Shown: positions 42,361 to 49,111 of the stretch, piece after piece
Layout of the letters: each line of letters opens with the position of its first letter
How positions within the stretch are numbered: the first letter of the stretch is position 1
NCBI RefSeq assembly: GCF_004211145.1
Contig: NZ_SEBS01000003.1
Location: 62,001 to 126,000 of the forward strand
Reading direction: 5' to 3'
From: Flavobacterium sp.
Lineage (GTDB): Bacteria; Bacteroidota; Bacteroidia; Flavobacteriales; Flavobacteriaceae
Length of the DNA stretch: 64,000 nucleotides
Notes under the pieces: generated by a model
Told to the model about the DNA's origin: nothing
What the model saw: only the letters and a program-made list of their open reading frames with translations
Database searches by the model: none
Program-made: the position numbers and the translations under genes

Positions 42361-44223
42361 TTATTTTCCTGACGCGGCGCGTTCCTTTGCGAGTTCCTCA
42401 CGCATCTTGCGGATTTCTTCCTGAGCTTTCTTGATGTCTTCGCGCGCGGCCTCGATATCCTTGCGGGCTTGCTCCATATCGTCTTTTTTGTAGCCTTTTG
42501 CCACGATTTCCTTATCTCGGCTCCTTTGGCTGGCTTCGATCTCCTTATGAGCGCGTTTGATTTCGGCGGCAGAACGTTTGATTTCGGCTTTTGCGCGTTC
42601 CAGTTCAGGACGGGCGGCCGCGATCGCTTTTTGGGCTTCGGCGAATGCCTGGCTTGAAATTTCGCGAAGATCTTCAGACGTAAAGACCTCGTCCCCGTTC
42701 ACACTGATGATCATGTCTTCGTTTCCGTTTTTGGAGCGCGAAAAACTTCTGATTTTAACCGGATCGATGTCGAACATTATTTTGTCGGCCTCGGCACCCG
42801 TAACTTCTTTGCCGTTGACGATGACCGTGCGTTTGTTTCCGTTGCGTGTCGCGACGACGATTTTTTGGTCGGCGACAAGAGAATCGGTGTCGAAATCAAA
42901 GTCGAAATTGAAGTTCAAGTTTTCAGTCACGTCTTCGCCCTCGTTTTCATCATCGTCTTCCGAATCATTACGTGTGAATGAAATGTGCGTTTGCGGTTTG
43001 TTCTCGTTTTTGTTGAAGATGTGAAATCTGTTTCCCGTAAAACCGATCGCGCCGTCATTTTCCTTGTAGAATCGGATTGGTTCTATGGGTTTGTCGCTCG
43101 CGAACATGGTCGTTCCTTTCTTTCCGTCGGCATCCTTGAACTCGGCCTTGATCGCGATTATTTCGCCGTTGCCGTTGCGTTTTACCTTTGAGAATTTGAG
43201 TTTGATACCGTGGTCTTTCTTGAGTTGTTCGGACTTGGCTTTGAGTTCGGCGTCCGACGTATTTTTGTCGACGACAACCTCGACGCCTTCCTGGGCCGCG
43301 ACGATCATAGGATCGATGTTGCGCTGTTGTGCGACCACTTTCACCTGAAAATAAAGCAGGAACGCGGCCAAAGCGGGCACGATCAACAAATACTTCCAGG
43401 AATTCCACTTGCTCGATTGATTTTTGTTAAGCATAACGATTCGTTTTTTGATTAATGATTGAAAAAAATGATTGGTAACCGCAACGCAACTTTCGTGCGT
43501 CGTTATTTTTAAAAGCGTGAACTGATATGACTTCAAGTCCGGGATTTTCTTCGCGGCCTCGCTATCGGCGATGAACTCGAGATTTTGCAGGATCGCTTTT
43601 TTGTAGAGCCAGGCAAACGGATTCCACCAGAACGCGATGCACATGAAACGCGCGATCAGGACGTCTAACGTGTGCTGTTGCGCGCTGTGGACTTTTTCGT
43701 GTTCGAGGATGTTTATAAGTTCATCGGTGCTGTAAAGCGATGAATTGTACACGATGTAACTGAAGTACGAAAACGGCGCGACATTTTCGGCAACGTCTAC
43801 AAATTTATAATCCAATTGGCGTTGCACGGTCTTTCCCTTTAGTAATTTCCGAAGCGAATAAAAGTCTCGTAAAAAACTAACAATCAATGCCAAAGTAATC
43901 AATGCATAAACCGATGCTGCAACCAAAAACCAATTGACTTCAAACGCTTCTGCGGCAGGCGTGACCGTCGAATAAGCAATCGAATCCAGTTCTGAAAGCG
44001 AGCCGTTGTCCCAATTCACAATCGGTTCGACAGGCGTCGGATCGACCCAGACCACTTTCCTAAAAGTAACCAAAGGCAGCAAGACCGACGTGACTAACCC
44101 GAGCAGCAAATACCAACGGTTACTCTTAAAAAACGTCTCGCGGCGCAACAACAGATAATACGCGACGAAGAACAGCGCCATGAGCGCGCCTGATTTTGCG
44201 AGATACAAGGCCAGCGTTTCCAT
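42361..44223 (-). CDS. M56 family (BlaR1-like) membrane metallopeptidase
   Basis: 620 residues. The N-terminal 290 residues are the BlaR1-type M56 domain: membrane helices (LYLAKSGALMALFFVAYYLL, YLLLGLVTSVLLPLVTF, FLVAASVYALITLALIVSFL) and the zinc motif HEKVH at 175-179, with a Glu in LEFIADSEAAK. A fourth helix (YLLIVPALAAFLLYFQVKVV) leads to about 310 residues outside, ending in charged helices (AAARPELERAKAEIKRSAAE). There is no penicillin-binding sensor domain, so it does not sense beta-lactams in the known way. It presumably cleaves or relieves the BlaI repressor whose gene abuts it (TAATG overlap). Confidence 0.92.
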   Translation of the reverse strand: METLALYLAKSGALMALFFVAYYLLLRRETFFKSNRWYLLLGLVTSVLLPLVTFRKVVWVDPTPVEPIVNWDNGSLSELDSIAYSTVTPAAEAFEVNWFLVAASVYALITLALIVSFLRDFYSLRKLLKGKTVQRQLDYKFVDVAENVAPFSYFSYIVYNSSLYSTDELINILEHEKVHSAQQHTLDVLIARFMCIAFWWNPFAWLYKKAILQNLEFIADSEAAKKIPDLKSYQFTLLKITTHESCVAVTNHFFQSLIKKRIVMLNKNQSSKWNSWKYLLIVPALAAFLLYFQVKVVAQQRNIDPMIVAAQEGVEVVVDKNTSDAELKAKSEQLKKDHGIKLKFSKVKRNGNGEIIAIKAEFKDADGKKGTTMFASDKPIEPIRFYKENDGAIGFTGNRFHIFNKNENKPQTHISFTRNDSEDDDENEGEDVTENLNFNFDFDFDTDSLVADQKIVVATRNGNKRTVIVNGKEVTGAEADKIMFDIDPVKIRSFSRSKNGNEDMIISVNGDEVFTSEDLREISSQAFAEAQKAIAAARPELERAKAEIKRSAAEIKRAHKEIEASQRSRDKEIVAKGYKKDDMEQARKDIEAAREDIKKAQEEIRKMREELAKERAASGK

Positions 44224-44585
44224 TATTTGTCGCGTTTTTCGATGGTCGCCAGGATCTCACGCAGCTCGTCGGCTGAAATTTTTTCCTCCTTCGCAAACAT
44301 CGACACCATATTCTTGTACGATGAATTGAAATAATTGTCGATCGCGGTCTTCATGAAACCCTTGCGATAATCTTCTTTTTTCACGATCGGGAAATACTGG
44401 TGCGTATTTCCGTAGGCCGTGTGCGACACATAACCTTTTTCCTCGAGGTTGCGCACGATCGTCGACAGCGTGTTGTAATGCGGCTGTTCATCGGTGATTT
44501 CGGCCATCACATCTTTCACGAATGCCTTTTCGAGCTTCCAGATGATGTGCATGATTTCTTCTTCTTTGTTGGTCAGTTTTTGCAT
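44223..44585 (-). CDS. BlaI/MecI/CopY family transcriptional repressor
   Basis: 120-residue winged-helix repressor. The N-terminal DNA-binding part is LTNKEEEIMHIIWKLEKAFV, VMAEITDEQPHYNTLSTIVR and NLEEKGYVSHTAYGNTHQYF. The C-terminal helices dimerise (GFMKTAIDNYFNSSYKNMVS). Family repressors bind short palindromes and are inactivated by cleavage triggered by their M56 partner. It is translationally coupled to the M56 gene and 48 bases after the Ntn hydrolase gene; two matching operators lie before that gene, so autoregulation of the three-gene operon is likely. Confidence 0.95.
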   Translation of the reverse strand: MQKLTNKEEEIMHIIWKLEKAFVKDVMAEITDEQPHYNTLSTIVRNLEEKGYVSHTAYGNTHQYFPIVKKEDYRKGFMKTAIDNYFNSSYKNMVSMFAKEEKISADELREILATIEKRDK

Positions 44586-44633
44586 AATTAAGTTTGAGTC
44601 GAAAGTCTAAAGACTGACGAATTTGGGTGGATA

Positions 44634-45896
44634 TTATTTTAATTTTTTGAGCATCTCTAGGCTGCGATCGTAACTTATCGGATAAGAATTCGCCGCGTCC
44701 GAACCAGCTTTGGAGTAGTAAACCAAAGCGTTTTTCTTATCGCCTCGGAGCAAATGGAGATACGCGATCATTTCATATTCGAAGTTTTTGATTTTGATGT
44801 CCGACTCAGATTCCGACAGTTCTTCAAATATCGATTCGGCAACATCGAGGCGTTCGTCAGCGTACGCTTTTAAATTGAATCCGTTTTGAAATCCGAACCA
44901 ATATTCCCAGACCTTCCCGCCTGACTGCTTGTTGTTCGCATCGCGCATCAATTGGATGGCGACGTCGAGAATTTGCGTTTTTTGTTTCGCGTCCAGCGGA
45001 TTTCGGGCGATCGACAAATAGTGTTCCTTCGCACGTTCAAATCCGATTTTGTCTATTTCGGCAAGCCACGATTCCTTTTGATACAATTCGTGGTTTTGGA
45101 CGTAACTCGAATAAGCGAAAGTAGGAGCGAAGCGGGTTGCGAGCGATTCAAGTCGATAACCGTTCGCGAGTTCGGTTTCCAGATCGATCTCGAATACATT
45201 TTCAAAATCGTGGAACAGATACACGTAAACCTTCTTGCGTTTCAAGTCGTAGATCGCCGAATATTGGGTTGACAGATTTCCCTCTTGATGCGTGGCGTTC
45301 AACACCGATTTCATCATTGGAACAGAAACTGTTTTGGCATTTGACAGCATATTTTCAGCAGTCGTATAACGGAAACAGTTGAAACCTTTTTCGAGATCGA
45401 GAATGTTGAAATTGGTATTGATCTGATAGTTGTCCTGCTTCAAAACCTTTCCACCCGGATTGATTACGATTGATTTTCCGGTCGCATCGGCCAACAAAAC
45501 TTGGGACGAATTAATGTAGTCGTGGGTTTCAAGGAGCTTCAGCGCCTCATCGACCGTTTTGCATTTGCCGATGATTTCAAAAAACAAATCGCCTGAAAAT
45601 GGGTTTTTAAATTTCATCTCCGACGTGTCAACACCGTATTGTGCCGTGTAATCGTAAAACAGCCCGAATTCGTTTATCGCCGCGGCAACCTGCAAATCGG
45701 GAGCACCGAAACAAACCGACCCAAATCGCTCTTTCGTGGCTGGGTTAAACCAAACGCGGGTAAAAGGAGTATAATCGTCTTCATTCGCAGCGGCGAAAAC
45801 CTCACCGTTTATCGCACATGAAAATATCGTACAACTATAGCCGCTTAAAGAAGTCGCCGAAAGCACAATCAAAAATATGTCGCGGATGATTTTCAT
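44634..45896 (-). CDS. Ntn-hydrolase, choloylglycine/penicillin-acylase-like superfamily
   Basis: 420 residues. A signal peptide (MKIIRDIFLIVLSATSLSGY) is followed at once by Cys22 in SCTIFSCAINGEVFAAANED. This is the pattern of linear amide hydrolases whose N-terminal Cys becomes the nucleophile after processing; conserved Asn/Asp follow in NEDDYTPFTRVWF. ADATGKSIVINPGG is a further family-like strand. The last 100 residues are helical and TPR-like (FELSESESDIKIKNFEYEM, EMIAYLHLLRGDKKNALVYY). Known relatives cleave bile-salt, penicillin or N-acyl amides; the substrate here is unknown. It is the first gene of the operon with BlaI and M56. Confidence 0.85.
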   Translation of the reverse strand: MKIIRDIFLIVLSATSLSGYSCTIFSCAINGEVFAAANEDDYTPFTRVWFNPATKERFGSVCFGAPDLQVAAAINEFGLFYDYTAQYGVDTSEMKFKNPFSGDLFFEIIGKCKTVDEALKLLETHDYINSSQVLLADATGKSIVINPGGKVLKQDNYQINTNFNILDLEKGFNCFRYTTAENMLSNAKTVSVPMMKSVLNATHQEGNLSTQYSAIYDLKRKKVYVYLFHDFENVFEIDLETELANGYRLESLATRFAPTFAYSSYVQNHELYQKESWLAEIDKIGFERAKEHYLSIARNPLDAKQKTQILDVAIQLMRDANNKQSGGKVWEYWFGFQNGFNLKAYADERLDVAESIFEELSESESDIKIKNFEYEMIAYLHLLRGDKKNALVYYSKAGSDAANSYPISYDRSLEMLKKLK

Positions 45897-45901
45897 TGAT
45901 C

Positions 45902-45946
45902 CAAACCTACAACTATATTTTTAGTTTGCAAACTATATTTTTAGTT
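45902..45946 (-). promoter_or_regulatory. Promoter with double BlaI-type operator upstream of the Ntn hydrolase operon
   Basis: On the minus strand TTTG (45932-45929), 19 bases, TAGGTTTG (45909-45902): exact consensus. Two identical 16-bp sites AACTATATTTTTAGTT lie at 45911-45926 and 45931-45946, each with AACTA/TAGTT inverted ends, 20 bp apart. The first fills the -33/-7 spacer, the second covers the upstream side of -33. The start codon is only 5 bases past the -7 box, so the mRNA would be leaderless or nearly so. BlaI is inferred as the binder from gene adjacency and site form. Confidence 0.8.
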
Positions 45947-46042
45947 ATTTAACGATTTTTTAGGAATATTTGATTGCTAAGATGTTGAAGTACAAAACAA
46001 ACGAAAGTGTAAGCAGCAAGTAGAAAAGCTACGAACTAAAAT

Positions 46043-47337: not shown

Positions 47338-48478
47338 TAGATGATTAGAAAATTAGATGATTAGAAAATTAGCGGATTAGCGGATTAGCGAATTAGCGAA
47401 TGTACAAATTGGAGGGACGAATCGTGTTTTAAATGGCGTAAAACTTCCGGTTGGAGGAAAAGGTGTAAATATTTGGAAGATTGAATTCGCTAATTTCTAA
47501 TTTCGAATGTACAAATTGGATGCATGAATTGTGTTTTAAACCGCGTAAAATTATAATCGAAGGGAATACGCGTAAGCGGTTGGAACAACGAATTTGCTAA
47601 TTCGCTAATTTTCCAATCCGCTAATTTTCAAACGTACAAATTGAAAGAACAAATGGCTTTTAAACCGCATAAAATCATAATCGAAGGAATAGGCGTAAAT
47701 GTTTAAAAGATCGAATTCGCTAATCCGCTAATTTTCCAATCCGCTAACTTTCAAACGTGCAAATTGAAAGAACAAATGGCTTTTAAACCGCATAAAGTCA
47801 TAATCGAAGGAATAGGCGTAAATGTTTAAAAGATCAAATTCGCTAATCCGCTAATTTTCCAATCCGCTAATTTTCAAAACGCACAAATTGAAAGAACAAA
47901 TGGCGTCTAAACCGCGTAAAATTATAATCGAAGGAATAGGCGTAAATATTTAAAAGATCGAATTCGCTAATCCGCTAATTTTCTAATCCGCTAATTTTCC
48001 AAACGTTCAAATTGAAAGAACAAACGGCGTTTTAAACCGCGTAAAATTATAATCGAAGGAATAGGCGTAAATATTTAAAAGATCGAATTCGCTAATCCGC
48101 TAATTTTCTAATCCGCTAATTTTCAAAACGTCCAAATTGAAAGAACAAACGGCGTTTTAAACCGCGTAAAATCATAATCGAAGGAATAGGCGTAAATGTT
48201 TAAAAGATCGAATTCGCTAATCCGCTAATTTTTAAAACGTTCAAATTGAAAGAACAAATGGCGTCTAAACCGCGTAAAACTATAATCGAAGGAATAGGCG
48301 TAAATGTTTAAAAGATCGAATCCGCTAATCCGCTAATTTTCCAATTCGCTAATTTTCAAACATACTTGTAAAAACGAATCGCTTTTAAACTGCGTAAAAG
48401 TTCCAATCGAAGGAATAAGCGTAAACGTTTAGAACAACGAATCCGCTAATTCGCTAATTCTCTAATTCGCTAATCCCC
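47338..48478. repeat. Nine-copy 123-bp tandem array with mirrored octamer ends
   Basis: Nine units start near 47401, 47509, 47634, 47757, 47880, 48004, 48127, 48239 and 48361, with period about 123 bp and one short unit of 112 bp. Core: CAAATTGAAAGAACAAATGG, ACCGCGTAAAATTATAATCG, AAGGAATAGGCGTAAAT, TTTAAAAGATCGAATTCG, then a spacer of CGCTAATC octamers. Central units are nearly identical; the end units are divergent. The left edge has ATTAGCGG octamers, the right edge CGCTAATT/CGCTAATC, so the array is bounded by inverted arms. There is no gene in this 1.2-kb gap. Confidence 0.93.
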
Positions 48479-48511: not shown

Positions 48512-49111
48512 ATGAAGTCGCTATCAATTTGTTTACTTTTCGTCTGCCTGAGTGGATTTTCGCAGGACAAATACGATGTCGCGGCGGCCGAAAGCTACCA
48601 GAAGCAACTCGATTCCGAATACGCCGACCCAAAGGAATCGCCTTTGCTGGACTCGGATCGCGAGCATTTCAAAGGATTGGATTTTTACGCGATCGATGCG
48701 AAATACATCGTCAATGCGAAATTTTCCCAGGTCAAGGAAGCAAGGCCGTTCGAGATGAAAACCACGGGCGCGCGACGTCCGATGTACGTGCTTTTCGGAA
48801 TCATCGAATTTTCGATCGACGGCAAACCGTTGAAATTGAACGTATATCGCAACATCGAACTTTCTAAAAAAGACGAATATAAAGATCACCTTTTCCTGCC
48901 GTTTTCTGACCTGACAAGCGGAAAGGAAAGTTACATCGGCGGGCGTTACATCGATTTGCGGGTTCCCGCGGGCGATACGATCGTCATCGATTTCAACCGA
49001 GCGTACAATCCGTATTGCGCGTACAATCCGAAATATTCGTGTCCGATCGTACCGCTTGAAAACGATTTGTCGGTCGAGATAAAAGCCGGCGTAAAAAAAT
49101 TCCACGATTGA
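48512..49111 (+). CDS. DUF1684 domain exported protein
   Basis: 199 residues with a signal peptide (LSICLLFVCLSGFSQ). DUF1684 features are visible: an early Lys-rich segment ending in SPLLDSDREHFKGLDFY, the strand PMYVLFGIIEFSIDGKPLKL, LFLPFSDLTSGKESYIGGRY with DLRVPAG, and the nearly invariant FNRAYNPYCAYNPKYSCPI. Function of the family is unknown. Its TGA stop shares one base with the ATG of the TatD gene, so the two are coupled. Confidence 0.92.
   Translation: MKSLSICLLFVCLSGFSQDKYDVAAAESYQKQLDSEYADPKESPLLDSDREHFKGLDFYAIDAKYIVNAKFSQVKEARPFEMKTTGARRPMYVLFGIIEFSIDGKPLKLNVYRNIELSKKDEYKDHLFLPFSDLTSGKESYIGGRYIDLRVPAGDTIVIDFNRAYNPYCAYNPKYSCPIVPLENDLSVEIKAGVKKFHD

Follow-up and report, generated by a model that had tools for sequence, protein, structure and literature searches.

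A BlaI-type operon in Flavobacterium sp. with a predicted Ntn hydrolase gene behind an old blaI promoter

What does a BlaI-type repressor control in a genome where no beta-lactamase gene stands behind its operators, and which signal might relieve it? The question is raised by a hydrolase-blaI-M56 operon in a 64,000-nucleotide stretch of Flavobacterium sp. (assembly GCF_004211145.1, contig NZ_SEBS01000003.1, positions 62,001–126,000), the whole of which is referred to here as the window. According to the list of open reading frames (ORFs) of the 64-kb window all three genes are on the minus strand, and they encode a predicted secreted hydrolase of the Cys-type N-terminal nucleophile (Ntn) class, resembling choloylglycine hydrolase, penicillin V acylase (PVA) and C45 enzymes and with a helical C-terminal half (45896–44634, 420 aa), a BlaI repressor of the Penicillinase_R family PF03965 (44585–44223, 120 aa), and an M56 membrane metalloprotease of family PF05569 having a BlaR1-like core and an extracytoplasmic domain unrelated to penicillin-binding proteins (44223–42361, 620 aa). 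The hydrolase gene is separated from blaI by 48 bp, and blaI overlaps the M56 gene by one base. No internal promoter or terminator above background was detected in the interval between hydrolase and blaI, and a single transcript is therefore assumed. That blaI and the gene of an M56 sensor-protease are in one operon had been proposed in an earlier note on this DNA, and the ORFs and the matches to the two families agree with it; the coordinates of the note covered the hydrolase and blaI and left out the M56 gene. The explanation that we consider very probable is an autorepressed operon of the BlaI type, which is an old switch of the genus with an inserted hydrolase gene.

The hydrolase gene is preceded by two predicted BlaI operators with the identical sequence AACTATATTTTTAGTT, both exact and given here as dyads without strand, one proximal (45911–45926) and one distal (45931–45946). 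The 20 bp by which they had been said to lie apart is the pitch from start to start, and the gap is 4 bp. They are interwoven with the exact promoter match TTTG-N19-TAGGTTTG on the minus strand (45932–45902), one of three in 64 kb where 0.29 were expected, with a -33 element TTTG at 45929–45932 and a -7 element TAGGTTTG at 45902–45909, one base past the proximal operator. TAnnTTTG is the -7 box of sigma-A promoters as mapped in F. psychrophilum (PMC9723704), and judged by its sequence the promoter before the hydrolase is of this Bacteroidota form. The proximal operator lies entirely within the 19-bp spacer between the -33 and -7 elements, as had been claimed, and the distal one shares two bases with the -33 TTTG. 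At the next 20-bp step (45951–45966) only part of a dyad remains, possibly a decayed third operator; a third dyad at this pitch is intact in several relatives. Two near-matches with at most three mismatches were obtained in 24 of 100 shuffles of the window, and the pair is thus not unusual when the window alone is counted. The significance of the operators rests instead on the exact copies in the whole genome, on the single tandem pair and on conservation in the genus. The search for further copies that the note had suggested found AACTA-N6-TAGTT exactly twice in the 4.03-Mb genome, both times in the hydrolase promoter, with about 5.6 copies expected from base composition, and when up to two mismatches are allowed the tandem pair has a single occurrence, the reversed control having none. 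The bla operators of S. aureus and B. licheniformis may have the same ACTA-N6-TAGT geometry; a literature search did not confirm their sequence. The assignment of BlaI operators in a promoter of the Bacteroidota type, as far as it can be predicted from the letters, has held up.

The same arrangement is found over most of the genus. The tandem operator pair is present in 80 of 121 sampled Flavobacterium genomes (reversed control 0), and a scan for the pair plus the -7 box, which allowed two mismatches and whose reversed control was 0 in every listed genome, detected it in 293 of 400 genomes and in 274 of the 335 that are of good quality, almost always before blaI-M56. Absence of the site upstream of orthologous operons had been named beforehand as a refutation of the proposal, and the site is present there. 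All 30 fetched loci with tandem sites adjoin blaI, and 25 of 29 close blaI loci contain two or three sites with an exact 20-bp pitch, the proximal site being followed by one base and then TAnnTTTG. Among 72 genomes of the genus the pattern is present in 48 of the 52 that have a blaI orthologue vs 1 of the 20 that do not (Fisher, p=1.4e-12), and in the sole genome that has the pattern without blaI the contig stops inside an ORF starting MQKLTNKEEE, which is the start of BlaI. A profile of 92 aligned loci contains both dyads, the -7 box and, further upstream, a weaker signal of the third dyad (-20 to -5). An exact TTTG at -33 is present in 19 of 95 loci, TTGT and TTGC being more frequent, and the earlier description of the promoter as exact thus holds for this locus with what is a minority form at -33. 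This conservation and the co-occurrence with blaI point to a dyad operator in the repressor's own promoter, as in the BlaI/MecI/CopY family. The blaI orthologues are mostly 75–90% identical to that of the window, and the usual order in the relatives examined is TatD, unknown gene, MFS, operators, blaI and M56. Several species with large genomes (e.g. locus L161) have a second blaI-M56 pair next to the first, at a distance of about 2 kb, and this second copy often lacks the operator pair.

In the window the TatD-X-MFS neighbours are kept, but the hydrolase gene sits between the operators and blaI, an order found in none of the other fetched Flavobacterium blaI-M56 operons. A scan of 84,980 species gave 37 orthologues of the hydrolase, mostly from Chryseobacterium and Pedobacter, plus one from the Flavobacterium metagenome-assembled genome PMG_227 (66% identity), a sister species, which forms a fully supported sister of the window hydrolase in the tree. 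In PMG_227 blaI (90% identical) and the M56 gene are in the usual position behind a normal operator pair, the hydrolase being absent there, and the blaI promoter has TAAAAAATCGTTAAATAACTAAAAA and the -7 box in common with the window leader, indicating that the window promoter is the old blaI promoter. By this sequence comparison the hydrolase gene, whose position behind an old promoter had escaped the note, is inserted between blaI and the promoter that is ancestral for blaI in the genus. The hydrolase gene of PMG_227 is by itself at another locus and has AACTGCAAATTTAGTT-AGTC-AACTATAAAATTAGTT-T-TATCTTCG directly before its ATG, a site with the same pitch and geometry and two mismatches in total. 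The hydrolase is therefore a predicted BlaI target in two gene arrangements, and by analogy it may be regarded as an effector that an old switch acquired recently and that takes the part of the beta-lactamase of bla systems.

The window BlaI matches PF03965 over its length (residues 4–116, E=6.5e-32, 110.7 bits), and its nearest solved structures are MecI and BlaI. Met96-Phe97 aligns with Asn101-Phe102 of the S. aureus BlaI, which is cleaved by BlaR1 at N101-F102 (PMC9834060), and the Phe is found in 75 of 75 relatives; cleavage is thus predicted before this P1' Phe, as in the BlaI family. The M56 protein matches PF05569 (E=1.4e-9), and its five top Foldseek matches are all S. aureus BlaR1, with no other structural match. 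Residues H175, H179 and E216 do not vary among 18 relatives and form a gluzincin HExxH...E motif in a membrane core of four transmembrane segments; the 41-residue spacing from H175 to E216 is that of H201 to E242 in BlaR1, where H201/H205/E242 are the zinc ligands (PMC9834060). In the periplasmic part no transpeptidase or beta-lactamase-type match was obtained, and against NCBIfam blaR1_generic the protein scores 24.7 bits with a cut-off of 400. Besides a small alpha/beta domain that many relatives also have, this part contains long charged helices and an acidic stretch that is disordered, so that the absence of a penicillin-binding sensor and the charged helical C-terminus described in the note are supported by the domain searches and the model. 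The protein shares the core of BlaR1, but because it fails the test for the sensor domain it should not be named BlaR1. Beyond the small alpha/beta domain the periplasmic part varies strongly between species. The C-termini of several species (e.g. L167, L172 and L175) contain repeats like IDG...VLKG..A..KYGE.GKNGVIEI, resembling plug motifs of TonB receptors, and others end in charged helices, the sensor half being fast-evolving.

By analogy with the bla systems, binding, repression, proteolysis and induction may be pictured as follows. BlaI dimers would occupy the two tandem AACTA-N6-TAGTT dyads, of which the first lies within the -33/-7 spacer and the other immediately before it, and thereby exclude the sigma-A RNA polymerase from the promoter. 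An envelope signal received by the periplasmic domain would activate the membrane-bound M56 protease, which would cut BlaI next to the conserved Phe; the promoter would open, and hydrolase, BlaI and M56 protein would be made together. The open operon would restock BlaI and so close again. As inducer we prefer envelope or cell-wall damage, beta-lactams included, because related systems respond via BlaR1 to beta-lactams and also respond to a peptidoglycan dipeptide (PMC3305447), and because families of amide hydrolases recur among the targets; this is a guess held with less than even confidence.

The alternative that survives best is that the circuit is specifically a response to beta-lactams or cell-wall damage, in which the M56 protein would sense a disturbance of the peptidoglycan, or BlaI would bind a peptidoglycan fragment, and the effectors (the hydrolase here, PF00144 enzymes elsewhere) would act on beta-lactams or wall peptides. 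It is a narrower form of the explanation preferred here and does not exclude it. A peptidoglycan dipeptide releases both B. licheniformis BlaI and S. aureus MecI from DNA (PMC3305447), which speaks for this alternative, as does the presence of penicillin V acylases in the fold group of the hydrolase. More support comes from the other targets, since the same operator-promoter precedes secreted enzymes of PF00144, the beta-lactamase family, in four species (G158, G033, G431 and G338). SxxK and YxN motifs are present in these enzymes, which fall into two lineages, three members being 55–57% identical to each other and the fourth 28%; such genes were thus probably gained at least twice, independently. 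One enzyme is similar to Flp, D-amino acid amidase and DD-peptidases. PF00144 is, however, a broad family with esterases and peptidases, all four proteins score far below any beta-lactamase cut-off, and to label them beta-lactamases would be premature. Beta-lactamase-family targets are limited to relatives, the Ntn hydrolase being the sole enzyme behind an operator pair in the window genome, and the M56 protein has no penicillin-binding sensor. The further candidate targets are a GLPGLI protein (three species) and an outer-membrane beta-barrel protein (one species), and they too speak against a narrow wall-damage response. On balance this specific reading is somewhat less probable than not. 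The list of targets is small and was assembled after the fact. At three loci (L258, L261 and L271) an operator pair whose -7 box has one mismatch lies about 170–180 bp before a GLPGLI-type gene, and PMG_227 has a perfect operator pair between DUF3095 and DUF2383 genes (L187, 5882–5917; genome G347, contig C28) that is not at the standard position to a -7 box and is a possible further BlaI target.

The earlier note had looked for the inducer among compounds like the substrate of the hydrolase, and the substrate or product of this enzyme (an N-acyl amide or a bile-salt-like or acyl-homoserine-lactone-like compound) might induce the operon. The enzyme is the first in the operon and is under predicted BlaI control in both arrangements, and its fold family cleaves such amides. 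The AlphaFold model (pLDDT 87.4) gives Foldseek top matches to choloylglycine hydrolase, PVA and isopenicillin N acyltransferase (IAT), each with probability 1.00; a search by sequence found no solved structure. The predicted nucleophile Cys22 (codon 45831–45833, minus strand), after a signal-like N-terminus, is invariant in 18 orthologues together with N38-E39-D40-D41. In sequence searches the protein remains below the cut-offs of NCBIfam C45 (E=1.6e-11, 44.1 bits, cut-off 85) and Pfam AAT (21.3 bits, cut-off 23.2). The predicted fold and the N-terminal Cys, which sustain the proposal of an acylase-related Cys-type Ntn hydrolase, suggest amide hydrolysis, and cleavage of an acyl or peptide amide is our best guess for the reaction. 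As a source of the signal the enzyme is far too rare, being found in 1 of 300 sampled genus genomes (E<=1e-30, with no other orthologue there) vs 293 of 400, or about three quarters of those sampled, for the switch. Nearly all species thus have the switch without the enzyme, and the signal cannot be specific to the hydrolase substrate. Neither BlaI nor M56 was found near the orthologues elsewhere, and those of Chryseobacterium, Pedobacter and Mucilaginibacter have no operator directly upstream; the neighbouring genes differ between genera and were uninformative as a clue to the substrate. Deducing the inducer from the hydrolase was consequently rejected as the leading idea and is improbable. 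Of the interpretation given in the note the operators, the operon, the Ntn hydrolase and the missing sensor stand, and the inducer idea does not.

It might also be that the hydrolase gene landed behind the blaI promoter by a neutral accident, with no gain from BlaI control. The operon order is found in one genome only, and elsewhere the hydrolase family is not linked to BlaI, as would be expected of such an accident. The PMG_227 hydrolase, however, has an operator pair of its own, again with a 20-bp pitch and the same spacing to the -7 box, and this is difficult to account for unless BlaI control was selected for. Since the enzyme is linked to BlaI in two unlike gene orders, we give a neutral insertion little probability. 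That the dyads are AT-rich palindromes of another regulator, or of none, is extremely improbable in view of the tandem pitch, the position relative to the -7 box, the conservation in the genus and the co-occurrence with blaI, even though the operator assignment is a prediction and about 5.6 single sites per genome are expected from composition.

Some observations weigh against the preferred explanation, an old autorepressed BlaI switch with an inserted hydrolase. The model of the M56 protein is of low confidence (pLDDT 64.8), four genomes with a blaI orthologue do not have the full pattern, and the distal operator and the -7 box of the PMG_227 hydrolase have one mismatch each. The window genome (G000) also encodes a second, divergent BlaI (contig C54, 97303–97644; L018), 34% identical to the one in the window, which could in principle use the window operators. 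No AACTA-N6-TAGTT site is found upstream of this second gene, and it is unlikely to own the sites in the window.

The operator-promoter defined here, AACTA-N6-TAGTT twice with a 20-bp pitch and one base before TAnnTTTG, can be scanned for in any Flavobacterium genome. It provides an initial set of targets, and with it the nature of the signal can be tested directly. The predictions suggest that the same switch takes on different secreted enzymes in different species. More tentatively, and in our view unlikely as a whole, a genus-wide BlaI-M56 switch with a sensor that does not bind penicillin may control secreted amidases that differ between species, serine enzymes of the beta-lactamase family in some and here a cysteine enzyme like penicillin acylase, as an inducible response to antibiotics or wall damage; if true, this would be such a response with sensing that does not use a penicillin-binding domain. 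Apart from the operon, the window contains at 47534–48474 a tandem array of about 7.7 copies of a 125-bp unit, rich in the 8-mers AATTCGCT and AATCCGCT, which is flanked by the MFS gene and a gene at 48512 that are transcribed divergently, on opposite strands and away from the array.

Nothing relevant came from literature searches, made in a collection with few subscription papers, for a BlaI operator of Flavobacterium, for BlaI together with choloylglycine hydrolase and for BlaI-M56 in Bacteroidota. BlaI-M56 pairs without penicillin sensor are widespread in the genus, and no paper was found there giving their operator, targets or signal. The closest known systems are the bla and mec divergons, BlaI-BlaR1-BlaP of Bacillus licheniformis and MecI-MecR1-mecA and BlaZ of Staphylococcus aureus. 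Common to these and the operon described here are a BlaI-family repressor with the Phe at the cleavage site, several operators (three in the B. licheniformis bla system, PMC3305447), a membrane M56 protease whose BlaR1-like core has the same zinc ligands at the same spacing, and a secreted enzyme as effector. Unlike them, the operon has an M56 protein without penicillin-binding sensor, a Cys Ntn hydrolase in place of a BlaI-controlled beta-lactamase, which the window genome does not have, and a single transcription unit with a Bacteroidota sigma-A promoter and tandem operators with arms AACTA/TAGTT at a 20-bp pitch instead of a divergon. The hydrolase resembles choloylglycine hydrolase, PVA and the C45 acyltransferases in predicted fold, in the N-terminal Cys after a signal-like segment and in the conserved Asp region, and differs from them in scoring under the AAT and C45 cut-offs and in its extra helical C-terminal half. 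With the other Flavobacterium blaI-M56 operons it shares the promoter-operators, orthologous blaI and M56 genes and the same neighbours, the hydrolase between operators and blaI being the difference from all those fetched. The regulation is ordinary in type and should work like that of a bla operon, but its operator is defined and the circuit is genus-wide.

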